This document shows, piece by piece, positions 44,626 to 56,047 of a stretch of DNA of 64,000 bases. Origin of the DNA: Leucobacter sp. G161. GTDB lineage: Bacteria > Actinomycetota > Actinomycetes > Actinomycetales > Microbacteriaceae. The DNA lies in NCBI RefSeq assembly GCF_001482305.1, contig NZ_LOHP01000014.1:1-64000 (forward strand), written 5' to 3'. The translations under genes were made by a program, and so were the position numbers. Numbering within the stretch: position 1 is the stretch's first letter; every line of letters begins with the position of its first letter. The notes under the pieces were generated by a model. That model worked only from the letters and a program-made list of their open reading frames with translations. It was not told where the DNA came from and ran no database searches.

Positions 44626-45498
44626 TCACATAGCTGTAGATTCAGCAGACTGGGTCGCACCTTCGGGTGCGGCCCAGTTTTTTTGTCTGCGCCCACCGAT
44701 GAGGAGCCCGACTGTGAGGCCCGTGACGAAGATCGCGACACCGGCAACGGTGATGGGCGCCCACGGCACCGCCGGGGCTGCCGGCGCGGCCCCAGGCTGG
44801 ACTGGCGCCCCCGGCGCGATTTCGGCAGCGGGTGGGGCCACGGCGGCGACGGCCGCGCAGTCACCCAGCTGCAGGTCGAGCGTGATCGGGTCGAGCTCGA
44901 CTCCGGCCTCATAGAATCCCGCGAAGGCGACAACACCAGAGTTCGTGAGCTCGGTCGGGAGGTCAGTTAGCGTCAAGCTTCCGTCAGCCGGGGCGAGGGA
45001 TTCCGCCACTGTCACATCCCCCACCCACTCTTGGTCCTCATCGACGGCGACCTCACCGTCCATGTCGGTGCTCCGCGAGTCGAGCAGCAGCGCCGCCTTA
45101 CCGTCGCCTTCGAACTCGATCGTTGGGTTTGCGAGGGTCAAATCAAGAATTCCGTCGTGTCCCGTGAAGTGCACTGTGCCAGGGAACGAAACCGTCCCGG
45201 TGCCGCTCGCGGGGTCGATGCTGCCCGTCGCGCCGCTCCAGGTGAAGTTGGGCGATTCGTAGGTGAGGCCGTCGCTCGTCTCCCACGAGCCGTTGGCGAT
45301 GGAGCCGCTGATGTAGGAGCGGAAGCTTGCTTTGATGCCCCACTGCATGGTGCCTCCGGTGACCTCACACGCACTTCCCGCTGTCTGTGTGGCGAGCGGC
45401 TCGGCCGCCGCTCCGGCGGCGGTACTGGCGAGCATGGTAGCGGCGATGGCCGCAGTTATCAGGCCGCCGCCGAGGCGGCGCAGCGTACGACGATTCAC
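44626..45498 (-). CDS. Single HtaA-domain membrane-anchored heme-binding protein (operon B, third gene)
   Basis: A 290-residue surface protein: signal peptide (MNRRTLRRLGGGLITAAIAA...), one HtaA (CR) domain at about residues 48-215, an Ala/Pro linker, a C-terminal transmembrane helix and a short basic tail (GGRRQK). HtaA domains of Corynebacterium bind heme through conserved Tyr and His residues; here the corresponding positions are filled: Tyr in SFRSYISGSI, His in HFTGHDGILDL, Tyr in FAGFYEAGVELDP. GTG 45498 follows GAGGAG. The closest relative in the window is the gene at 51062. It lies 80 bp after the three-domain protein with no clear promoter. Confidence 0.88.
   Translation of the reverse strand: MNRRTLRRLGGGLITAAIAATMLASTAAGAAAEPLATQTAGSACEVTGGTMQWGIKASFRSYISGSIANGSWETSDGLTYESPNFTWSGATGSIDPASGTGTVSFPGTVHFTGHDGILDLTLANPTIEFEGDGKAALLLDSRSTDMDGEVAVDEDQEWVGDVTVAESLAPADGSLTLTDLPTELTNSGVVAFAGFYEAGVELDPITLDLQLGDCAAVAAVAPPAAEIAPGAPVQPGAAPAAPAVPWAPITVAGVAIFVTGLTVGLLIGGRRQKNWAAPEGATQSAESTAM
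44649..44685 (+). terminator. groEL terminator, inside the convergent hta gene
   Basis: ACTGGGTCGCACC (44649-44661), tetraloop TTCG, GGTGCGGCCCAGT (44666-44678), then seven T. It ends groEL transcription but lies within the last codons of the minus-strand hta gene (44626-45498). Confidence 0.92.
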
Positions 45499-45578
45499 GA
45501 ACGATTCTCCTCAAGATTACTTAGCCCGCAACGTGCCAAGCGGTTGACCGGTGCAGCCGTGCGACCCACCGGTGGTGG

Positions 45579-48557
45579 TTACATGCGTTGCCGAATTGCG
45601 AGGGCCGACGTGCTCCCCGCGATGAGTGTCATTCCGCCAGCCATCACCCACCATTCCCACAGCGCCATCCCGCCCCCGAAGCCTGCGGCTTGAAGCCCGG
45701 CAGCAGCAGTGGCTGCGGCGAGCGCTTCCTCAGCGGACAGCGCGGCTTTCGAAGCAGCAGCGGATTCCTCCGCCGACAGCACCTTGATCTGAGCACCAAC
45801 GTTTGTACTGCCCTGCATGGTGAGCGTGTACGGTCCGGGGGTAATGTCGGCAGGCAACCGGCCGGCCCAGGTCACTCCTCCGGAGGAATCGGCTTGGACG
45901 GTGTCATCGAGCACATTCGGTCCGGGGTAGAGCACGACGAGGACGCCCTCGTCCTCGGGCTCAAAGCCAGCTGCGCGGACCTCGATACGCCCTCCGGGAA
46001 CGATCTTCTCCGGGTCGGTCAGCACTTCAAGCCCGTCCGTCGCAGGTGGAGCGTCCGCAGCGGTGTACTTCGACTCCGTCTTCCCCTCGCCCTGCGTCGT
46101 GGAACTGTAGGTCACCCTGCTCGAGGAACCGACCGTGAACGTGAGTGGTTCGAAATCAATGCCCTGATTCGCTGAGATCCCGACCAGGCTCCCCTGCACC
46201 GGAACATTGCTCCACGTCACCTCGCCGCCTGATCCCACGCTCTTGGTAGCGGCCCCCAGGTTCAACGGAACGGTGCTCGGCCCGTACGATCCGGAGTATC
46301 CGGTTGTCAGCGTGGCAGACGTCGCGCTGGTCACCGTAATCGTCGGATTGTTCACCTGGAACATCGTGATCCCGTAACCCTTAAACGCGACGGTGCCGGA
46401 ATAGCGGACGGTTCCCGTCTGGGAGGCCTCGTTCCACGTCGAACCGCTCTGCGGGAAAAGATATCCGGCGCCGACCCCCGTTGTCGAGATGCTCCCTCCG
46501 GCGCAGTGTCCACCTGGAGTCGGGCAGGCAGCGGTGTTTGATTTCGCCGTCGTGTACCCGGCGAAGTAGTTCGAGACGCTCCACCGCAGCGACCCCGCTC
46601 CAGCCCCGCCGCCCGCGGGCGACCGGCCGGCTCCGCCCCCGCCGGTTTGTTTCCTCGCCTTGTCAATCCGCAGCATCACCGAGTTCGAGTTCGCGTGATA
46701 GTAGCGATCGCCGTCTTGCGGTTGAAAGAGCGCTTGCGCCGAATAGACGCCTTCCGGCAGCTTCGTTGTCTCGAGCACGGCGGCTCCGCCGCTCACGCGA
46801 ACGGGGCTCCCGAGCGATGTGTTTCCGTAGCTGAACGCTACCGTGCCCGCGATGGCGGGCGACACCTTCGCCGTAAACGTCACCCTGTCGCCAACGTTGG
46901 CGCTGGTGGGCGACGCGGCGAGCGTCACCGAGGTCGCCTGCTTATCGGCGACGGTAAAGGCGCCTGGGAGGGTGATGTTGAGCGGGTCGAGCTCGGTTCC
47001 CGTCTCATAAAAGCCGCCGAAGGCTTCTGCGCCCTGCTTCGTGAGTCGGGCGCCGACGTTCTTCCACGACAACGTCGTATTGGCGCTGTTGACCTCGGGT
47101 ATGCCGAGGGAGAGTTCCGCGAGCGGGGCATTGACAAACGAGAACTTCGCGCCCACCGAGTTCATGTCGACGAACTCGTAGCCCTCGACGTCGGTGTACA
47201 GCGTGCCGCTCGTTGGTGAGGTAATCACCACCCGCGGATTCGTGAACTGCAGGTCGAGCGCGTAGACCGACCGCCCGTTCACCACCATCGGGTGGGATTG
47301 GAAGTGCACCCCGTTGCCCGCGCCGAATGCGATCTCGGCGCTCGTCCCATTGGACGCCGCTGTGCCGGAGCCCCCACTCCACTGGTAGGTGCCCTGATCC
47401 TTCGCCTGCTTGGTGCTCCCGAGGAGCGCTGTCCTGCCGCCGAAGGCAGGGGCGTTGTAGATGTAGTTACGGAACGAGGCTTTGACGCCCCAGTCGAGGG
47501 TGGCGCCCTTCACGTCGATGACGGTGTTCCCGCGCTCCGACACGCGGACCTGGATCGCGGCTGCGCTCGAAGCGACGAACGCTTCGGCGTCCGTTGGCGT
47601 GAACTGTGCCGAGATGGAGTGTGTGCCGAGCGGCAGCTCCGCCGTTCGGAGCGTGGCGGCGCCGCCTGCAAGCGGCACTGGCGCGCCGAGCGAGACGTCG
47701 CCGGTAAAGAACTGCACCGAGCCCTCGGCGGTTGCGGGGGTGACGGAGACGTTGAACATCGCTTCGTCGCCCAGGAGAAGAGCGGTCGTGCTCGAAGCGT
47801 CGAATGCAGTGGTGGTGGCGACCAGGCTGGGCCCCTCCCCGCCTGGATCACCCTCCAGTCCGGCCGTGGGGAGGGAGAAGGTCACCGGATCGAACTGCTC
47901 GCCTGCCTGATAGAAGCCGGCAAAGTTCTCCGCCCCCTCCTCCGTCAGCACGGCCGCCGCGTTGGCCCAGGTGCGCACGTCACCCTCGACCGTCGGTTCG
48001 GGCAGCGTGAGTTCTGCGAGCAGCGCGTCTTGATTCGCATACGGCTCGCCAACGGTCGTTGTATCGACGTACGCGCGCCCCTCGACATCGACACGCAGTT
48101 CAGCCGTCGTTGCCGATGTCACGACCACCCTCGGATTGGTGAGGGCGATGTCAAGAATGTAGGGGTCTTCCTCGGCGGCCCCGCTTTTGTGCCCGAGGAA
48201 GTGCACACCGTTCCCGACGCCGAACGAAACATCGGCGGCGGAACCATCGAGTGCCGCGGAGCCCTGGCCTTCGCTCCACTGGTATTCCCCGGTGGTGTTC
48301 CCCAGCAGTTCGATAGTCCCCTTCGGGATCGGGCCGACAATGTATTTCCTGAAGGACTCTTTCACCCCCCAGTCAAGGGTCGCGCCCGACACGGCGCCGG
48401 TGGTCTCGTCAGGCGCGGCGGCAGCGATCGCTGGCGCGAAGAGCGCGGTCCCCGCCGCGAGGAACGCGACGAGTGCTCCCCCCACCGCCCGACCGAATAG
48501 GCCGAGCGGTGTTCTGTGCTGACGGCGGAGTTCGTTCTGCACTGGGGAAACACTCAT
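45579..48557 (-). CDS. Three-HtaA-domain surface heme-binding protein (operon B, second gene)
   Basis: A 992-residue exported protein. Order: signal peptide (about 1-48), HtaA-1 (about 55-232), Ig-like domain (about 245-345), HtaA-2 (about 350-540), Ig-like domain (about 550-640), Gly-rich linker, HtaA-3 (about 665-810), a beta domain (about 840-935) with LVVLYPGPNVLDD, Ala-rich stretch, and a terminal transmembrane helix. HtaA-1 and -2 have the Tyr/His/Tyr set (FRKYIVG, FLGHKSG, FAGFYQAGE; FRNYIYN, FQSHPMV, FGGFYETGT). HtaA-3 has Tyr in place of the His (FKGYGITM) and lacks the last Tyr, so it may not bind heme. Starts 14 bp after the preceding gene; same operon. Confidence 0.9.
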   Translation of the reverse strand: MSVSPVQNELRRQHRTPLGLFGRAVGGALVAFLAAGTALFAPAIAAAAPDETTGAVSGATLDWGVKESFRKYIVGPIPKGTIELLGNTTGEYQWSEGQGSAALDGSAADVSFGVGNGVHFLGHKSGAAEEDPYILDIALTNPRVVVTSATTAELRVDVEGRAYVDTTTVGEPYANQDALLAELTLPEPTVEGDVRTWANAAAVLTEEGAENFAGFYQAGEQFDPVTFSLPTAGLEGDPGGEGPSLVATTTAFDASSTTALLLGDEAMFNVSVTPATAEGSVQFFTGDVSLGAPVPLAGGAATLRTAELPLGTHSISAQFTPTDAEAFVASSAAAIQVRVSERGNTVIDVKGATLDWGVKASFRNYIYNAPAFGGRTALLGSTKQAKDQGTYQWSGGSGTAASNGTSAEIAFGAGNGVHFQSHPMVVNGRSVYALDLQFTNPRVVITSPTSGTLYTDVEGYEFVDMNSVGAKFSFVNAPLAELSLGIPEVNSANTTLSWKNVGARLTKQGAEAFGGFYETGTELDPLNITLPGAFTVADKQATSVTLAASPTSANVGDRVTFTAKVSPAIAGTVAFSYGNTSLGSPVRVSGGAAVLETTKLPEGVYSAQALFQPQDGDRYYHANSNSVMLRIDKARKQTGGGGAGRSPAGGGAGAGSLRWSVSNYFAGYTTAKSNTAACPTPGGHCAGGSISTTGVGAGYLFPQSGSTWNEASQTGTVRYSGTVAFKGYGITMFQVNNPTITVTSATSATLTTGYSGSYGPSTVPLNLGAATKSVGSGGEVTWSNVPVQGSLVGISANQGIDFEPLTFTVGSSSRVTYSSTTQGEGKTESKYTAADAPPATDGLEVLTDPEKIVPGGRIEVRAAGFEPEDEGVLVVLYPGPNVLDDTVQADSSGGVTWAGRLPADITPGPYTLTMQGSTNVGAQIKVLSAEESAAASKAALSAEEALAAATAAAGLQAAGFGGGMALWEWWVMAGGMTLIAGSTSALAIRQRM

Positions 48558-48571
48558 CGCGTTGATCTCTC

Positions 48572-50803
48572 CTATCGGATGATGCCGTTGACACCCGAGC
48601 GGGCGGCAAGGCTGCGGCGGGCGGCGAGCAGGGCTCCACCGAGCAGGAGCAGCAGCCCGGCCCCAACGGCGAGGCTCACTGCGGGCCCGTCGGATCCGCC
48701 CTTGGCGAGCGGATCGTTCGAACCCTTGTTGTCCTCAGGGGTCTGCTTGTCGCCGCCACCGGGGTTCTCACCGTCACTACCCGGGCCGCCACCACCGGGG
48801 CCATCGCCGCCGGGCTCGGTGACGGTAGCCTTCTCAACGACAAACGCATCAGCGAAGGTGAAGACTCTGTCGGTGCTGGTGTTCGTGACGGTGATGCTGT
48901 GCGCACCGAGCGCGAAGTCTGCCGGAACCGTCCAGCTCGCGTTCACGAACCCTGATTCGTCGGCCGTGTAGCGATCGGGCAGCGTCGCAGTCTCTGACTG
49001 GATCGCAATCTCGAACTCATCGCCAGCCGCGAACGCGCCAATCCTCAGCTCAAGCTCGTCTCCTGGGTTCACGGTAACCGTTCCCGCAGGCTTTCCGTTG
49101 ATCTGCACCACTGGGAACGCGGCAACCGTCACTGAAACCGCGGCCGACTCAGACTGTGCGTGAACATCCGTGTTCGCGGGGACAAACTCGGCAACGACCT
49201 CGTTCGCGCCGACGCCGAGATCGGTCGTTGTCAGCGATGCTGCGCCGTCCGCCACGGTAACGGGATCGGCAAGTCTCTCGCCGTTGCTGGTGAACCGCAC
49301 TGTGCCCGCCACATCGGCGGTCACTGCTGCAGCGAGCTCAACTTCGTCGCCGGCAAACACCGACGATTCGGAGGCGTCCAGCGTGACGGATGTGGCCTGG
49401 GCCGGCGCGAACTCGATCGGCGTGAATGTCTCGAACGGTGCGTAGGTGGCTCCGCCACCGGGGTACGTGTAGACACCATAGTGCCCGTTCTCGAGCGCCA
49501 ACGCGCTGTCCTTTGTCAGCGTCAGGGTGGTCTCAAACGTTCCGTCGGCGTTCAGCTCGATGCCACCGGGCACCGAGGAGATGAGCGCGAGCTCGGGTGC
49601 CTGCACTGCCCAGCGGGTATCGAAGCCTTTGCGGGCCGCAGAGGTGATGCCCTGTGACGGCTGCCACTGCTCAGCGAACGATCCGAAGACGACGTATGCA
49701 CCGGTGAAGCGGCCGGCGAGCGGCGCGTACCGGCCGTCGGTGTCGGGAGACTTCGGCAGGAAGCCGGTGCCGGTAACGGTGACTTCTTCGCCAGCGGGGT
49801 CAATGCCTGACAGCTTGTCGACCATGACAGTGGGGGTGTTCCTCGGTGTGACGGTCACTTCGAAAACATCCGAGACTGACCCGAGGAATGCGGAGCCGCT
49901 TTCCGGCGCAAACTCAGCGGTCAGGCTGTTCGACCCAACTTCAAGCGCTGAAGTCTGCAGGGTCGCGGTGCCCGCGTCGACAGCGACCGGCTCGCCCAGG
50001 GTGGAGTCGCCGTTCGTGAACTGCACCGTTCCCGGTGCCTCTGGCGCAACCGTCGCCGTCAGGGTGAGGATGTCCCCCTGGGTGACGGTGTCCGCTGATG
50101 CGACGAGCGTGGTCTGCGTCGCCACAGCCACGGGTTGCGTCGCGATCGGCAGGGAGAAGCTCACAGGGTCGAGCAGTTCACCGGGCTCGTAGAACCCTGC
50201 GAAGTTTTCCGCGCCTTCCTTTGTGAGAACGGCCTTTGCGTCGCTCCAGGTGCGCACGTCACCGTCTATCGTCGGTTCGGGGAGTGTCAGTTCGGCGAGC
50301 GAGGCGTTCTCGTTCGAATACCAGTCGCCGACGGTGGTCGTGTTGACAAACTCGCGGCCTTCGACGTCTGCGCGGAGCTCACCGGTCGTTGGCGAGGTCA
50401 CCACTATTCTCGGGTTCGTGAACGCCACGTCGAGGATGTAGGGGGCGTCGTCGGCAGCGCCGCTCTTGTGCCCGCGGAAGTGGACGCCGTTTCCGACCCC
50501 GAATGAGACATCAGCACTCGAACCGTCGAGCGCTGCAGTGCCCTGGCCGCCACTCCACTGATACGTACCAGTGGTGTTTCCGAGCAGTTCGATCGATCCC
50601 TTCGGGATCGGCCCTACAACATACCTCCGGAATGACTCTTTCACACCCCAGTCAAGCGTCGCGCCAGCGACAATGGCGTCGTCCATCACCGCAGATTCTG
50701 CGGATGCGATGGTCGGGGCGAGTGTCAGGCTGCTGGCCGCGAGCAGCGTTGTTGTAAGTGCGCCAAGTAACGCACCGCGCTTTCTGCGCTCAGTGATTCC
50801 CAT
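48572..50803 (-). CDS. HtaA-domain surface protein with Ig-like domains (operon B, first gene)
   Basis: A 743-residue exported protein. Order: signal peptide (about 1-35), HtaA domain (about 45-222) closely similar to HtaA-1 of the next gene, Ig-like repeat (about 230-320), a beta-sandwich with TVTGTGFLPKS and GAYVVFGSFAEQW (about 325-460), another Ig-like repeat (about 465-555), a further beta region, a Gly/Pro-rich linker, and a C-terminal anchor: LAKGG, hydrophobic helix, basic RRSLAARS. The helix and basic tail look like a sortase signal, but LAKGG is not a standard LPxTG/LAxTG. HtaA Tyr/His/Tyr are present (FRRYVVG, FRGHKSG, FAGFYEPGE). AAGGAG precedes ATG 50803. Confidence 0.9.
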   Translation of the reverse strand: MGITERRKRGALLGALTTTLLAASSLTLAPTIASAESAVMDDAIVAGATLDWGVKESFRRYVVGPIPKGSIELLGNTTGTYQWSGGQGTAALDGSSADVSFGVGNGVHFRGHKSGAADDAPYILDVAFTNPRIVVTSPTTGELRADVEGREFVNTTTVGDWYSNENASLAELTLPEPTIDGDVRTWSDAKAVLTKEGAENFAGFYEPGELLDPVSFSLPIATQPVAVATQTTLVASADTVTQGDILTLTATVAPEAPGTVQFTNGDSTLGEPVAVDAGTATLQTSALEVGSNSLTAEFAPESGSAFLGSVSDVFEVTVTPRNTPTVMVDKLSGIDPAGEEVTVTGTGFLPKSPDTDGRYAPLAGRFTGAYVVFGSFAEQWQPSQGITSAARKGFDTRWAVQAPELALISSVPGGIELNADGTFETTLTLTKDSALALENGHYGVYTYPGGGATYAPFETFTPIEFAPAQATSVTLDASESSVFAGDEVELAAAVTADVAGTVRFTSNGERLADPVTVADGAASLTTTDLGVGANEVVAEFVPANTDVHAQSESAAVSVTVAAFPVVQINGKPAGTVTVNPGDELELRIGAFAAGDEFEIAIQSETATLPDRYTADESGFVNASWTVPADFALGAHSITVTNTSTDRVFTFADAFVVEKATVTEPGGDGPGGGGPGSDGENPGGGDKQTPEDNKGSNDPLAKGGSDGPAVSLAVGAGLLLLLGGALLAARRSLAARSGVNGIIR

Positions 50804-50864
50804 GCGTACGTGCTCCTTGTCGAGTACAGAGATGTGAGAGCACCGAGACGCGCCCTCATCGGAT

Positions 50865-50883
50865 CAAGGTAAGGCAACCCTTA
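50865..50883 (-). promoter_or_regulatory. DtxR/IdeR iron box upstream of hta operon B
   Basis: On the minus strand TAAGGGTTGCCTTACCTTG, 16 of 19 positions matching TWAGGTTAGSCTWACCTWA. Located 62 bp upstream of the first gene of operon B. Confidence 0.75.
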
Positions 50884-50901
50884 ACTGGACCCCACGTATC
50901 A

Positions 50902-50929
50902 GTTTGACCACAATCGTCAGATGATGCAA
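50902..50929 (-). promoter_or_regulatory. Shared upstream element, operon B copy
   Basis: ATCGTCAGATGATGCAA (50913-50929, plus-strand reading) matches 15 of 17 bases of the element at 56078-56094. Adjacent GTTTGACCA (50902) and GTCAGATGA (50916) form a weak direct repeat with 14-bp spacing, as in the other promoter. Candidate activator or regulator site. Confidence 0.5.
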
Positions 50930-51007
50930 CCCCCGCTGTTAATTTTTGGAGCATCTCTTGCCGCCCGCCCGTCCCTGCGGGTGCTCGTTCCGGCGCAGCA
51001 CACACAA

Positions 51008-51039
51008 AACCGGCCGGGTGGTAAGCCACCCGGCCGGTT
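51008..51039 (-). terminator. Terminator of hta operon A
   Basis: Perfect 14-bp stem AACCGGCCGGGTGG / CCACCCGGCCGGTT with loop TAAG (51022-51025); on the minus strand it continues into GTTTTGTGTG. It lies 22 bp past the stop of the one-domain hta gene and separates operons A and B. Confidence 0.88.
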
Positions 51040-51061
51040 CAAGCATTCCTATCGCGGAGCG

Positions 51062-51949
51062 TTACTCAGGCGTTCCTTGTCCCTCGTCATCAGCCCCGCC
51101 CTCATCGCCGTTCGGCTTCTTACCGCGCCCGGCGAGCAGCATTCCACCCGTGACGCCGATGGCTATGAGTGCGACTCCACCGATCACGATCGGCAGCCAC
51201 GGAATCTCTGGCCCCGCGGCTTCCGGAACTGGTGCTGGTTCCGGGGCGGGGGTGACTTCGGGAGCGGGATCGGGAGCATCGGTTGCCGGCCCAGAGGCCC
51301 CGAGCTGGCAGCCCGACACCGCAATCGTCACAGCCAGCGGATCAAGGTTGCTACCTGCGACGTAGTCGCCATAGTCACCATTGAGCGCTTTGGCCCCTTC
51401 AGCGGTGAGCAGCACGGGCGCATTCTCGACTGCGAAGCCATCGCCCGTGGTTGCCCCAGCGAGGTCGACCTTGCCCATCGGAATACGCTCGAACGAGAGT
51501 TCACCGCCCTCGACGTCGGTCGAGGCCACTCCAACGACCAGCTGAGCTGACTGCGGGCCGGTGAAGACTACCTCTGGGTTCTGCAGATCGAGCTTCATGA
51601 GCCCGCCGTGCCCGGTGAAGTGCACGTCTCCGGTGAAGGTGACTGAGCCGGATTCGAGATCCGCACCGAATTCGCCTGTGCCATTCTTCCAACTGAAAGC
51701 GGGCGTCTCGTAGCTCGCACCATTTTCCATCGTCCACTCGCCGTTCGCGATGCTTCCGCTGATGTAGTTACGGAACCGCTCGAGCACGCCCCAGCGGAGC
51801 TCAGCTGAGGTAACCGTGCACACTGCGGCGTCACCGTCTGCGGCCTCGGTCGAGGCGGCCGAGGGGCTGGCGGGCCCAAATAGCAGGCCTGCCGCCAGCC
51901 CTGCGGCAACGGCCGCCGTCGCTCCTCGGCGCACGATCCTTCGATTCAC
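51062..51949 (-). CDS. Single HtaA-domain membrane-anchored heme-binding protein (operon A, second gene)
   Basis: A 295-residue surface protein: signal peptide, one HtaA domain (about residues 48-215), Pro/Ala-rich linker, C-terminal transmembrane helix (IPWLPIVIGGVALIAIGVTG) and a charged cytoplasmic tail. Heme-ligand positions are present: Tyr in RFRNYISGSI, His in FTGHGGLMKL, Tyr in GDYGDYVAGS. GTG 51949 is chosen: AAGGAG lies about 9 nt upstream, and the signal peptide then starts VNRRIVRR. It begins 25 bp after the large four-repeat gene and is its operon partner. Very similar in plan to the gene at 44626. Confidence 0.88.
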   Translation of the reverse strand: MNRRIVRRGATAAVAAGLAAGLLFGPASPSAASTEAADGDAAVCTVTSAELRWGVLERFRNYISGSIANGEWTMENGASYETPAFSWKNGTGEFGADLESGSVTFTGDVHFTGHGGLMKLDLQNPEVVFTGPQSAQLVVGVASTDVEGGELSFERIPMGKVDLAGATTGDGFAVENAPVLLTAEGAKALNGDYGDYVAGSNLDPLAVTIAVSGCQLGASGPATDAPDPAPEVTPAPEPAPVPEAAGPEIPWLPIVIGGVALIAIGVTGGMLLAGRGKKPNGDEGGADDEGQGTPE

Positions 51950-51974
51950 AAACGTCTCCTTGTCGCGCATTCGG

Positions 51975-54900
51975 CTAGCGGGTACTGCTGGTATCGACCG
52001 TAGCATTTGCCGAGTTCCTGCGTTGGTTCACAACCAGGGCTCCCATAGCACCCGCAAGGGCGATCAGCGCGCCTGCGCCGACCCACCACATCCAGACGGG
52101 ACCACTCGTCGGATCCGCGATCGCTGCCGCCGCCTGCTGCGGTTGTGCGCTCGCTTCAACAGTGCCCTGTTCGATGACTGGCTTGGCCTTCTTCTTGGTC
52201 TTCTCGACCACCTTGATGACCGCTCCAGCATCCGTACTGCCCTGCAGTGTGATGGTGTGCTCGCCCGGCTCGAGATCCTCAGGAAGTGTGCCGATCCAGC
52301 GCACCTCACCGAAGGAGTTCGCGCCCGCCTTGTCGTCGAGGACGATCGGATCGGAGTAGAGCACCACGAGGATGTCCCGCTCGTCAACCTCAAAGCCGGG
52401 CGCAGCGAACTCGATCTCGCCGCCGGGAACCAGCTCGTCCGCGGGAGTGATCACCCGGATACCGGTCGTGGCCGGCGGGGTTGCTGCCGCCACTCGAGCG
52501 GCCTTCTGCTCGGTCTGCGTGGTCGACCCGAACTGCGCGCTACTCGGAGCGCCCACCGTGAAACTCAGCGGGTCCACGGCGAACGATCCACCGCCCGAGG
52601 CGCCGCCGCCAGTATTGCCGCCGCCGCTGATGGAACCGTTCACCGGCACACCGCTCCAGGTCACTTCACCGCCGGCGCCGACCGTCTTTGAGGCCGCTCC
52701 AAGGTTCAGGCCGAAGCTGCGGCCTCCCGCGCTGATCGTGCCGCTGGTGGGACCCGTGATGGTGATCACGGGGTTCGCGAAGGTCTCGGTCAGCAGACCC
52801 TTGTGGCCGGTGAAGGTGACCACGCCAGAGAACTGCACGCTACCGGTCTGCGCCTTGGCGTTCCACGATCCGCCGTCAGCCTGCGGGAACATGTACGCTC
52901 CCCCGCTGCTGCCAACGCCGCTCGTCGAGATCGCGCCCTTCGCGATGCGCCCGGTCACGTAGCCCTTGAACCCAGAGGAAATGCCCCACGAGAGCGAACC
53001 AGCCTGCTGCGAGCTCGAGGTGCCAACCGGCTTCGGCTGCGGCTTCGGCTTGGGCTTCACAACCGGCTTGGTCGGCGGCACGGGAGTGGTGGTACCACCG
53101 TCCTTGCCTGCTCCCACCGTGAAGCTGACATCGTCGAACCTCTCGCCTGCCGGGTAGTTCTGGAACGCAAGCACTGACTCCGCCCGGAGCTTCGCGGTCG
53201 CCTTCTTCCAGGTCACCTCGCCGTTCTTCCCGGTGGTCTTCGTCGCCTTCGACAGGTCGATGTCGACGAGCGGCTGTACCTTGCCGTTGACCTTTGCAGT
53301 CATCACTGCACTCTTGGGACCGGTGATCTTGATCTTCGGGTCAAGGATCGACAGTTGAAGCGCTCCCTCGTGTGCTTCGAAGCTCACCCCGCCGCCATAC
53401 GGCACTGTGCCAGCCTGGCTCTCCGGGTTCCAGTCTCCGCCCTTGATCTGTGGGAAGACGAAGGTGTTGCCCGACCGCGATGCGGCGCCCAGCACCTGCA
53501 CCTTGCCACCGGCAATGTTCTCGATGTAGTTCACGAACCGACCGAAAATGCCCCACTGCAGGTCGCCATCACCTGGCGTGACAACGACGCCACCAAACAC
53601 GGCGTCCCACTGTGCCGATGTCACGGCGAGGTCGGCCTGGCCGAGGTAACGCGAGTCGTTCAGCAGCCCGTGAGCGAGCCACGAGACCGCCACATATTCC
53701 TTGGAACGGTCAAGCTTCGCCGCGGGGACTTTGAGCTCCCGGGTCACTTTCCCGTCTTTGATAAACATCTTGTACGCGAAGTCCTCTGCGGCACCCGCAT
53801 CGGCGCTCGAGCTGTACTCCTTCACGCGGTCCTTCTCGATGATACCGACGTAGACGCCCTGATCATCTTTGCCAGTGTCGGGAACGTCCGCTGCAGCACG
53901 CAGCACGATGTTCTCGATCGTCGCGGAGACACGCAGTCCCTCAGCAGACGCGTCGGTTACCGACGCAGTCACCTTCGGTAGCTGACCGAAGACGGCGTCC
54001 CACTGCGCAGGTGTCACCGCCAGGTTGGCCTGGCCGAGGTAACGGGAGTCAATCATCATGCCGTGAGCGAGCCACGAAACAGCGACGTACTCCTTGGTGC
54101 GGTCCAACTTTTCCGCGGGAACGCTGATGTCGCGCGTCACCTTTCCGTCCTTGATGAACATCTTGTAGGCGAAGTCTTGCGCTGCACCCGCTGCTGCGTC
54201 CGTCGCGTACTCGTTGACGCGATCCTTCTCGATGATTCCGACGTAGACGCCCTGATCATCCTTGCCGGTGTCGGGAACATCGGCCGCCGCACGAAGCACG
54301 ATGTTCTCGATCGTCGCGGAGACACGCAGTCCCTCTGCCGATGCCGCAGTGACTGTCGCTGAAATGCTGGGCTTCGGGCCGAAGACGGCGTCCCACTGCG
54401 CCGGCGTCACCGCGAGGTCAGCCTGACCGAGGTAGCGCGAGTCGTTCAACAGGCCGTGCGCGCGCCATGAGACAGCGACGTACTCCTTCGAACGGTCCAG
54501 CTTGGCTGCGGAAACCTTAATGTCCCGAGTAACCTTGCCGTCCTTGATAAACATCTTGTACGCGAAGTCCTCGGCGGCTCCGGCATCGGCGCTCGAACCA
54601 TACTCCTTCACGCGATCCTTCTCGATGATTCCGACGTACACGCCCTGATCATCCTTGCCAGTGTCGGGAACGTCCGCCGCTGCACGCAGCACGATGTTCT
54701 CGATCGTCGCAGAAACGCGGAGACCCTCAGCAGATGCGTCGGTCACCGACGCCGACACGCGAGCCTGCGATGCACCGAACACTGCGTCCCACTGTGCCGG
54801 AGTCACCGCGAGGTCAGCCTGCCCGAGGAAGCGATCATCGTCGAGGAAGCCATGTGCACGCCACATGACAGCCACGTACTCAGTGCCGCGCTGAAGGTCA

Positions 54901-55955
54901 GCGGCAGGAATCTCAATCGTGCGTGCAACCTTGCCGCCACGGATTGCGGCCGCCGGGATGAAGTCCTCGAAGACACCAGCGGATGCATCGGTCTTGTAGT
55001 TCTCAACGAGCTTCTTGTCGATGATCCCGATGTAGGCTCCGCCGTCCGGCCGTCCGCTCGGAGTCGCGTCGCCGGCGCGCATGACGATCTCGTCCGCAGC
55101 GACAGCAACTGTCAGCCCTGTCTTCGAAGCTGCCGATACCGAGGCGGAAACCTTCGCCTTCGGGGATTCGGGAGTGGTCGTTGGCTTGTCGACCACTGCG
55201 ACAACTGCCTCCGCGGAAACCGAACCGTTGAATACAGCCGGATCGGCGGGAGCAAAGGAAGCAGTGAAGCTCTGGTTGCCCACCGTGAGTGCCGGAGTGA
55301 CGAGCGATGCGCCGCCAGCGGTGACCACCTGCGGCTCCCCCAGCTGGCTGCCGTTTGCGGCGAAAGTGACCGTTCCGGCGGCGTCCGCGGGCGCGACGCT
55401 CGCATTGAGAGTGACCGTCGCACCGACCTCGACCGACGCCGCGGAAGCGCTCAGAGTGGTGCTCGTGCCCGTCGGCTCGACGACCGGCTGCGCAACGGTA
55501 ATGCGTGAGAACGAATCCATCGTCCGATCTCTGCCCGAGAGCTGGTGGGCAGCAGACGTTGCCACGTGGTAGTTCACCGAGGGATCCAGCGTGTTTGCCG
55601 GAATCTTGACGGTCGTCGTGAAGCTGCCGGATGCCATCGCACGGGCGGGAACGTAAGCCTGGTCCAGCCAGCCCTCGCTCACCAACGGCCCGCCGCCCTG
55701 CCAGACACTCTCGGGCCCGACGAGCACGTACGCACCAAGCGCGGCCCCGTCGCCAACGAATCCGGTTCCCGTGACCGTGAGCACGTTCTCCACCGAGGGG
55801 TCGAGATTCTCGGCAGGGGACACCGTGATCGAGGGGCCATCGGCTGCATGAGCGGCGGGGACAACCAGCAGTCCGCTCAGTGCAACCAGCAGAGACGTGA
55901 TGATGGCCAGCGCCCTGGCGCCAATGGGCCCGGACTTCTTGGCAAGGGTACTCAC
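51975..55955 (-). CDS. Large HtaA surface protein with four tandem unknown domains (operon A, first gene)
   Basis: A 1326-residue exported protein. Order: signal peptide ending PAAHA (residue 37); beta-sandwich with TVTGTGF and GAYVLVG (about 40-165); Ig-like domain (about 170-262); four tandem modules of about 131 residues (about 265-785), each ending QWDAVFG; HtaA-1 (about 795-945); HtaA-2 (about 985-1132); a beta domain with LVVLYSDPIVLDD (about 1150-1250) shared with the gene at 45579; C-terminal transmembrane helix and short tail. HtaA-1 keeps the ligand set (FVNYIEN, FEAHEGA, FQNYPAGE); HtaA-2 has Tyr and His (FKGYVTG, FTGHKGL) but not the last Tyr. GTG 55955 is preferred because GAGGAG lies about 9 nt upstream; a longer frame to 56021 lacks a site. 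Likely the outermost heme or hemoprotein receptor (inference). Confidence 0.9.
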   Translation of the reverse strand: MSTLAKKSGPIGARALAIITSLLVALSGLLVVPAAHAADGPSITVSPAENLDPSVENVLTVTGTGFVGDGAALGAYVLVGPESVWQGGGPLVSEGWLDQAYVPARAMASGSFTTTVKIPANTLDPSVNYHVATSAAHQLSGRDRTMDSFSRITVAQPVVEPTGTSTTLSASAASVEVGATVTLNASVAPADAAGTVTFAANGSQLGEPQVVTAGGASLVTPALTVGNQSFTASFAPADPAVFNGSVSAEAVVAVVDKPTTTPESPKAKVSASVSAASKTGLTVAVAADEIVMRAGDATPSGRPDGGAYIGIIDKKLVENYKTDASAGVFEDFIPAAAIRGGKVARTIEIPAADLQRGTEYVAVMWRAHGFLDDDRFLGQADLAVTPAQWDAVFGASQARVSASVTDASAEGLRVSATIENIVLRAAADVPDTGKDDQGVYVGIIEKDRVKEYGSSADAGAAEDFAYKMFIKDGKVTRDIKVSAAKLDRSKEYVAVSWRAHGLLNDSRYLGQADLAVTPAQWDAVFGPKPSISATVTAASAEGLRVSATIENIVLRAAADVPDTGKDDQGVYVGIIEKDRVNEYATDAAAGAAQDFAYKMFIKDGKVTRDISVPAEKLDRTKEYVAVSWLAHGMMIDSRYLGQANLAVTPAQWDAVFGQLPKVTASVTDASAEGLRVSATIENIVLRAAADVPDTGKDDQGVYVGIIEKDRVKEYSSSADAGAAEDFAYKMFIKDGKVTRELKVPAAKLDRSKEYVAVSWLAHGLLNDSRYLGQADLAVTSAQWDAVFGGVVVTPGDGDLQWGIFGRFVNYIENIAGGKVQVLGAASRSGNTFVFPQIKGGDWNPESQAGTVPYGGGVSFEAHEGALQLSILDPKIKITGPKSAVMTAKVNGKVQPLVDIDLSKATKTTGKNGEVTWKKATAKLRAESVLAFQNYPAGERFDDVSFTVGAGKDGGTTTPVPPTKPVVKPKPKPQPKPVGTSSSQQAGSLSWGISSGFKGYVTGRIAKGAISTSGVGSSGGAYMFPQADGGSWNAKAQTGSVQFSGVVTFTGHKGLLTETFANPVITITGPTSGTISAGGRSFGLNLGAASKTVGAGGEVTWSGVPVNGSISGGGNTGGGASGGGSFAVDPLSFTVGAPSSAQFGSTTQTEQKAARVAAATPPATTGIRVITPADELVPGGEIEFAAPGFEVDERDILVVLYSDPIVLDDKAGANSFGEVRWIGTLPEDLEPGEHTITLQGSTDAGAVIKVVEKTKKKAKPVIEQGTVEASAQPQQAAAAIADPTSGPVWMWWVGAGALIALAGAMGALVVNQRRNSANATVDTSSTR
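53594..55170 (-). repeat. Four tandem 393-396 bp repeats inside the large hta gene
   Basis: Phase marker GGCGTCCC (or TGCGTCCC) recurs at 53601, 53994, 54387 and 54783, a period of 393, 393 and 396 bp. Copies 2-4 (53601-54782) are nearly identical in protein; copy 1 (54783-55170) is diverged, with only the ends (AHGFLDDDRFLGQADLAVTP) conserved. Confidence 0.85.
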
Positions 55956-56028
55956 TACGAGTTTCTCCTCATAAATATTTGTGCCTAATTTGGCGCCTGG
56001 ATGACACAGCTTTGACTTCACATCGGAC

Positions 56029-56047
56029 CGGAGTAAGGCTTACCTCA
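56029..56047 (-). promoter_or_regulatory. Iron-box-like palindrome upstream of hta operon A
   Basis: On the minus strand TGAGGTAAGCCTTACTCCG; 13 of 19 positions match the DtxR/IdeR consensus, with one half nearly perfect (plus strand AAGGCTTACCT). It is 74 bp upstream of GTG 55955. Confidence 0.55.

Follow-up and report, generated by a model that had tools for sequence, protein, structure and literature searches.

The gene at 51975..55955 on the reverse strand of a 64,000-nucleotide stretch of Leucobacter sp. G161 (contig NZ_LOHP01000014.1, positions 1 to 64,000; family Microbacteriaceae; hereafter the window) raises a simple question: what is the domain that its product of 1326 residues carries in four tandem copies ahead of two HtaA (CR) domains, and what does it do there? 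The answer we favor, at a little under even odds (roughly 0.47), is that it serves HtaA (CR)-type heme uptake in Leucobacter and other Microbacteriaceae as an accessory domain, arranged as a stiff rod and most likely binding something.

Organization of the module protein

A sequence-only reading of the window had described four tandem copies of an extracellular module, and comparison of the copies bears this out. Modules of about 128 residues fill residues 290–810 and start 131 codons (393 bp) apart: copy 1 at residues 290–416 (54774..55154), copy 2 at 421–548 (54378..54761), copy 3 at 552–679 (53985..54368) and copy 4 at 683–810 (53592..53975), all – like every other gene and domain of the window located below – on the reverse strand. 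Tandem Repeats Finder places the array at 53592-54828 (period 393, 3.1 copies, score 1566), far beyond chance. The motifs quoted earlier are there also, GAYIGII once, GVYVGII three times, and EYVAV and QWDAVFG four times each, and copy 1 is diverged as claimed, being 54–57% identical to copies 2–4.

That reading missed a fifth copy near the N-terminus. It was found at residues 92–169 by an iterated profile search of 1,936 open reading frames (ORFs), with an i-Evalue of 1.4e-10 at a stage when the copy was not yet part of the model, and extends to residues 81–170 (55512..55781) in later rounds; E-values from those rounds and from profile A2 (below) are not independent, the profile by then containing the copy itself. 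The four-copy profile alone reaches it only at E 0.15 (a weak match at 55518-55661). This domain is of the TVTGTGF...GAYVLVG type, and the TVTGTGF module of the module protein is thus a diverged copy of the repeat module.

The full order from N- to C-terminus is signal peptide (predicted by eye from the sequence), diverged module, Big_3_5 bacterial Ig-like domain (residues 190–276; 55194..55454; Pfam E 2.6e-11), four tandem modules, two HtaA/CR domains and a hydrophobic anchor (about residues 1309–1331; 52029..52097; seen by eye in the translation). The ORF (51975-56021) is open from a first GTG at 56021, which would give 1348 residues, and a GAGGAG ribosome site noted by eye at 55965-55970 points to the GTG at 55955 as the predicted true start. 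No LPXTG-type motif was seen by eye in the translated C-terminus, and the protein is probably secreted and membrane-anchored.

By domain content this is an HtaA-type protein: PF04213 matches it in two stretches at E 5.6e-45, above the Pfam cut-off. CR1 occupies residues 818–968 (53118..53570) and CR2 residues 1008–1155 (52557..53000, of which the Pfam match spans 52725-53000). A Tyr and a His column of CR1 are invariant in all 44 of the 44 aligned CR domains that come after a module, and the Tyr falls in helix 279-288 of a predicted module-module-CR1 structure; the roles of an axial Tyr of the first helix and a helper His in CR domains are taken from PMC12494546. The C-terminal part of CR2 is glycine-rich, a stretch ISGGGNTGGGASGGGS replacing FQNYPAGERFDD of CR1 in an alignment made by eye. 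In known CR domains a Tyr of this region contacts a heme propionate, according to PMC12494546.

A domain family absent from the libraries used

The module had been called unrecognized, and it remains so: no Pfam or NCBIfam model covers it, and no Pfam, NCBIfam or PDB sequence match to it passes a curated cut-off. Stray hits were rejected as short and unrelated (HROB, E 0.0023; PSI_PsaH, 0.0029; DUF397, 0.0091; TrmB, 0.014; one_C_fae, 0.021). A broader profile, A2, was built from 100 sequences kept of 130 after thinning; among the matches listed for these 100 members, Pfam hits are weak and scattered (TIG in two, best 0.015; Big_5 in one, 0.056). We conclude that the module represents a domain family that the libraries used do not contain. 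No account of it was found among the matches listed from the open-licence literature.

With the four-copy profile, 35 of 54 Leucobacter genomes (the host genome among them) and 40 of 398 genomes of a family sample show the module; profile A2 raises the latter to 59 of 398. In a phylum sample A2 finds it in just 8 of 396 genomes, five of them Microbacteriaceae and three matching only the first ~80 of 127 positions. Nothing indicates spread on plasmids: a tblastn search with the entire protein found no match at E 1e-5 among 72,556 plasmid records.

In the AlphaFold model, copy 2 has seven strands followed by a helix at the C-terminus, with a mean predicted local distance difference test score (pLDDT) of 96.6 and a predicted template-modelling score (pTM) of 0.89, so that the model confidently assigns the module an Ig-like beta-sandwich fold with a C-terminal helical cap. 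Foldseek returns a single PDB match for this model at E<=0.001 (a nanobody, 7.9e-4), and template-modelling scores are at most 0.54 among the 50 matches listed. Near-invariant positions of the family are a G, an L, a Y and a W, plus the W of the C-terminal QWDAVF segment. The LDRxKxYEV segment resembles what we take to be the tyrosine corner of Ig-like folds, and the best conserved residues of the module may therefore be structural.

The module-module-CR1 model, computed from a 44-row alignment, gives a pLDDT of 96 at the module-module joint and 68 in the block joining module to CR domain (pTM 0.65), and linkers between modules are 3–4 residues long. As read from linker pLDDT and pTM alone, the modules would line up as a stiff rod, hinged where the CR domain follows. 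The CR1 part of this model matches the HtaA crystal structure 6jsa (E 1.3e-9); its other, weak matches include multi-domain Ig-like proteins, among them complement and transglutaminases.

Association with HtaA genes

Sequence around module matches was collected as 96 stretches, 36 from Leucobacter hits, 57 from the family searches and three from outside the family; places found in the A2 family search and left out number one each in genomes G056, G140 and G279 and two in G186. (In G186, module and HtaA matches occur three times with identical scores, at C1:14803, C1:3130922 and C2:53370, which reflects duplication of an hta locus or else an artefact of assembly.) Together with the window these stretches hold 102 ORFs with 235 modules. 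Copy number is not fixed, a point on which the earlier reading had made its proposal depend in part: it ranges from one to seven modules per ORF.

In 74 of the 102 module ORFs an HtaA domain lies within the same ORF, and in a further 18 an HtaA ORF lies within 1.2 kb; none lies farther away. The remaining ten have no HtaA in the fetched stretch, and six of these touch its end; those that do not are L118, which comes from outside the family, L122 and L128, which lie 295 and 549 bases short of a stretch end, and L150. The figure of 74 is a lower count, since seven stretches gave no module ORF and four of them (L143, L158, L163, L166) hold additional ORFs with module and HtaA that HMMER's speed filter had passed over; of the other three, L116 has HtaA only, and L119 and L120 come from outside the family. 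At least one module is followed by a CR domain, with no other domain between, in 54 of the 74 module-HtaA ORFs, the gap being at most 45 residues in 44 ORFs.

The same association is evident across genomes. Within the family sample Pfam detects HtaA in 55 of 59 genomes with the module vs. 108 of 339 without it (Fisher p 8e-20, in a test that treats related genomes as independent). As to the four exceptions, G184 and G236 show HtaA by a laxer local profile (L110, L111), and the loci of G306 and G324 (L108, L109) break off where their contigs end. Many genomes have HtaA but no module, and the converse is rare; the module therefore looks like an accessory of HtaA systems and not the reverse. The tie to heme acquisition that had been suggested thus proves strong, both in these counts and in the iron-box enrichment given below.

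Some module proteins in hta loci contain no CR domain at all, ending instead in SLH repeats or a LATTG-type anchor. In the Leucobacter genome G015 an ORF at L050:7815-9803 encodes three almost identical modules and a LATTG-type C-terminus but no HtaA, and lies 194 bases from an HtaA ORF. In secreted proteins of nine loci (L062, L064, L067, L068, L069, L071, L074, L075 and L077) one or two modules are followed by three C-terminal SLH repeats, as found with a model built from one repeat of L071, directly beside HtaA ORFs; these sequences point to S-layer-type anchoring in hta loci. Such proteins lack HtaA and yet sit beside HtaA genes, so the module serves as more than a stalk for CR domains.

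Iron boxes and heme-related genes

A DtxR/IdeR-like iron box, AGGTAAGCCTTACTC, lies on the reverse strand at 56031..56045, 76 bp upstream of the predicted start of the module-protein gene, and differs at two positions from AGGTNAGSCTNACCT, which we take to be the DtxR/IdeR consensus. A second box with two mismatches (50867..50881, reverse strand) stands 64 bp upstream of a neighboring HtaA gene of 743 residues. The window contains four matches to AGGTNAGSCTNACCT at <=2 mismatches vs. 0.56 expected; the other two, palindromes at 54415-54429 and 54811-54825, are inside module coding sequence and are probably a coincidence repeated by the array. The full 19-bp DtxR consensus has no match at <=3 mismatches, and the best site upstream of the neighboring 992-residue gene has four mismatches.

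Over all loci the enrichment is marked. Searching from -300 to +100 of ORF starts (taken stop-to-stop), with seven of the 102 module ORFs too near an end for the test, a box at <=2 mismatches was found for 64 of 95 module ORFs vs. 4.4% of 2000 control windows, and at <=1 mismatch for 42 of 95 vs. 2.0%, ten being perfect; the control windows come from the same stretches and may themselves contain true boxes. At the level of sequence these counts would fit iron-dependent (DtxR/IdeR) control of the module gene. In C. diphtheriae, htaA and hmuTUV appear in a table of DtxR/iron-regulated genes in PMC13001254.

The host genome encodes one heme oxygenase and two proteins with an iron-dependent repressor domain. 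A Peripla_BP_2 gene stands divergently beside the module gene in two of the four relatives in which some neighbors were scanned (L131 and L138), followed in L131 by an ORF with an ABC ATPase domain; L135 and L154 show no Peripla_BP_2 gene among the few neighbors scanned (10 ORFs over the four loci in all). Heme auxotrophy as the reason for heme uptake in this strain is argued against by the presence of HemB, the one heme gene searched for.

Age of the array and constraint on the module

Copies 2–4 had been described as nearly identical and recently duplicated. Neither description holds. The three pairs are 84, 85 and 94% identical as protein and 80–85% as DNA, and each pair differs by 40–45 synonymous vs. 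8–21 amino-acid-changing codons. The synonymous distance (dS) between copies is 0.87–0.98, with a ratio of nonsynonymous to synonymous divergence (dN/dS) of 0.04–0.12. Corresponding modules of L. komagatae lie at dS 0.83–1.24 from copies 2–4, the pairing with individual copies being uncertain; at such divergence, in a GC-rich genome and with the Nei-Gojobori method and Jukes-Cantor correction, only the order of size of these values counts. Since dS among the copies (~0.9) is of the size that separates them from L. komagatae, the duplications date to about the time of the species split: this is an old array, kept under purifying selection. Module copies nevertheless turn over in the genus Leucobacter, near-identical copies being found in G015 (three, 97–99% DNA identity), G017 (four, 99–100%), and G018 and G003 (two each, 97–98%). 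In L. komagatae a draft assembly breaks within the array.

If the modules were no more than a spacer, they would be expected to drift like the Ig-like domain of the same protein. Against L. komagatae, dN/dS is 0.043 for the last module, 0.069 for CR1, 0.109 for CR2, 0.247 for the Ig domain and 0.209 for the fifth copy. Against G038 it is 0.064 and 0.116 for copies 1 and 2, 0.182 for the Ig domain and 0.183 for the fifth copy; against G018 it is 0.147 for the module, 0.146 for CR2, 0.184 for the Ig domain and 0.240 for the fifth copy, CR1 of G018, at 26% identity, being of another type. At the amino acid level the module is 76% identical to its G018 counterpart, CR2 80% and the Ig domain 53%. 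The module is thus 5.7-fold more constrained than the Ig domain in the L. komagatae comparison and 1.3- to 2.8-fold in the two others: its constraint is close to that of the CR domains and exceeds that of the Ig domain. Behaving more like CR than like a spacer, it more plausibly presents a binding surface.

These data bear on the main rival, that the module is a pure stalk – a stiff spacer that binds nothing, its copy number setting the distance of the CR domains from the cell wall. We regard this as a substantial possibility that falls short of likely. The predicted architecture would suit it: a confident beta-sandwich, a high-confidence module-module joint, very short linkers and weak structural matches to adhesin repeat arrays speak for a stalk. 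So does the range of one to seven copies per ORF, and the near-identical copies of G015 and G017 show that copies turn over; yet 46 of the 102 ORFs (some cut short) have a single copy, which gives little reach, and modules also occur in separate proteins without CR domains. Constraint divides in the same manner. The modest contrast with the Ig domain in two of three comparisons accords with a stalk, whereas the contrast against L. komagatae, the parity of module and CR domain in both comparisons where it is measurable, and the retention of sequence by copies 2–4 at dS ~0.9 do not.

Neighboring genes and relation to other domains

The module-protein gene belongs to a row of five HtaA genes (44626-56021), and all eight PF04213 matches in the genome fall within this row. 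The other four, as annotated with Pfam, are a single-HtaA gene of 314 residues (51062..52006); the 743-residue gene (48572..50803), which has two Big_3_5 domains and one TVTGTGF...GAYVVFG domain (49397-49831) besides HtaA; the 992-residue gene (45579..48557), with three HtaA and two Big_3_5 domains; and a single-HtaA gene of 290 residues (44626..45498). In another Microbacteriaceae genome (G112), a 3078-codon ORF (L116:980-10213) combines four HtaA domains with a TVTGTGF-type domain.

The earlier reading proposed that the module is a distant relative of the TVTGTGF...GAYVVFG domains of the neighboring genes. Aligned by hhalign with a profile of 22 such domains from these loci (A3; kept of 34 found), A2 gives 94 aligned columns at E 2e-4 and a probability of 46%, which is suggestive. 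Leaving out three N-terminal copies (those of the window, G003 and G019) lowers the probability to 32%, leaving out all 17 TVTGTGF-like rows of the 100 lowers it to 4%, and the four copies alone give 0.1%. A distant kinship running through such bridging members is plausible, if short of proof. Descent from the CR domain was rejected as far as profiles show (no PF04213 hit in 10 representative modules; hhalign probability 0.1%), and so, to the same extent, was descent from Big_3_5 (no hit in the 10 representatives).

It was unexpected to find neocarzinostatin-like domains in heme-uptake loci: 18 of the 22 A3 domains match the neocarzinostatin family (PF00960) at E<=1, best 1e-7, although the window's own TVTGTGF...GAYVVFG domain (49397-49831) has no hit to that family. 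A search for the family in 60 genomes gave one hit. This opens a second alternative, that the module itself binds heme or porphyrin in a neocarzinostatin-like chromophore cleft and is a second kind of hemophore domain. Iron boxes and the association with HtaA would agree with such a role, and aromatic residues and a His (72 of 100 members) are frequent in the family. On balance we think it unlikely. The His is missing from 28 of the 100 members, and the near-invariant Tyr looks structural; the alignment of the module with the TVTGTGF domains depends on the 17 bridging rows; the module profile reaches neocarzinostatin structures in PDB only at E 0.57 or worse; and PF00960 has no hit in the 10 representatives, nor for the 100 members among 25 of 34 families listed, nor is a neocarzinostatin structure among the 50 Foldseek matches listed.

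Least probable of all is attachment, in which the modules would hold the heme-uptake protein at a surface by gripping material of the cell wall or S-layer, or another cell, with heme the business of partner domains only. Ig-like modules are common in adhesins, and three SLH repeats close nine of the module proteins of hta loci; but these proteins already have an SLH, LATTG or membrane anchor for that purpose, and the module is rarely seen away from HtaA genes.

A model for module function

We favor, as stated, an accessory domain of CR-type heme uptake; a binding role for it is suggested by the constraint on its sequence and by module proteins without a CR domain. Under iron starvation a DtxR-type repressor would release the module-protein gene, and the product would be secreted and held by its C-terminal membrane helix. 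Stiffly joined head-to-tail, the modules would make up a rod at the outer, N-terminal end, with a flexible hinge between it and the CR domains. The modules would most likely bind a hemoprotein, some other carrier of heme or porphyrin, or a surface, and heme would be set free close to the CR domains; these may hold it by Tyr and His and pass it towards an HmuTUV-type transporter. A more specific version is tentative and open to real doubt: that the module is an undescribed capture domain, the counterpart in Microbacteriaceae of Shr HID or IsdH NEAT1, gripping a hemoprotein or a community-shared porphyrin carrier for CR domains of the same rod to take the heme, with copy number and sequence type tuning avidity and target. 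The reach, avidity and hemoprotein capture put forward in the earlier reading are likewise inferences. A Leucobacter strain that needs exogenous heme is reported in PMC6868719, and heme sharing between neighbors would be a fitting setting.

Several observations weigh against the accessory binding role. The most conserved residues (G80, L93, Y99, W104 and W128 of the model) read like the core of an Ig fold and not like a pocket, and the weak matches of the three-domain model include the adhesin repeat arrays 4mkm and 6xi3. The large contrast in constraint between module and Ig domain is seen in the L. komagatae comparison only, and the fifth copy is no more constrained (0.18–0.24) than the Ig domain. 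Copies within one protein fall to about 25% identity, which suits a spacer as well as changing specificities. Just two of the five HtaA genes of the window have an iron box at <=2 mismatches, the other three having none in the searched stretch, and 108 of the 163 HtaA genomes in the family sample lack the module. Finally, C. diphtheriae CR domains take up hemin without contacting hemoglobin as judged by nuclear magnetic resonance (NMR), according to PMC12494546.

That NMR result conflicts with earlier reports, and its authors allow for a contribution of other segments of the full-length proteins (PMC12494546). A conserved module before CR domains is a concrete and testable candidate for the hemoprotein step in another bacterial family, and it points to a new domain family tied to iron-boxed heme-uptake genes. 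The open-licence literature searched holds no paper joining heme, Microbacteriaceae and HtaA.

Comparison with known systems

Two families of small extracellular sandwiches invite comparison. Big_3_5 (PF16640) is one, and a copy stands in the same protein, but it shows no profile similarity to the module (hhalign probability 0.1%), which is 1.3 to 5.7 times more constrained. Neocarzinostatin (PF00960) resembles most of the TVTGTGF domains of these loci, and it shares with the module, as predicted, an Ig-like sandwich; the match of the module itself is below significance and its link to the TVTGTGF domains weak.

The closest known relatives by domain content are the HtaA/ChtA hemophores of Corynebacterium, which have CR domains (PF04213) and are iron-regulated; the gene described here carries an iron box. 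CR1 matches the solved structures of HtaA and ChtA and keeps the Tyr of the first helix and the loop His. Unlike in the present protein, tandem beta-sandwich modules before the CR domain are not mentioned for HtaA/ChtA in the accessible sections of PMC12494546, PMC8977872 and PMC13001254.

Because of the rod model and the iron boxes, the layout suggests a receptor built like Shr or IsdH, in which capture and heme binding are divided between domains. The likeness would be one of working and not of sequence: the 10 representative modules have no Pfam hit to NEAT or to the Shr HID at E<=10, the module protein as a whole has no NEAT match, neither domain is among the 50 structure matches listed, the partner here is CR and not NEAT, and binding by the module is only inferred. 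According to PMC8977872, streptococcal Shr unites separate hemoglobin-binding (HID) and heme-accepting (NEAT) domains in one surface protein of an iron-regulated operon, and staphylococcal IsdH and IsdB likewise assign hemoprotein capture and heme extraction to separate domains – the division of labor that modules and CR domains may share here.

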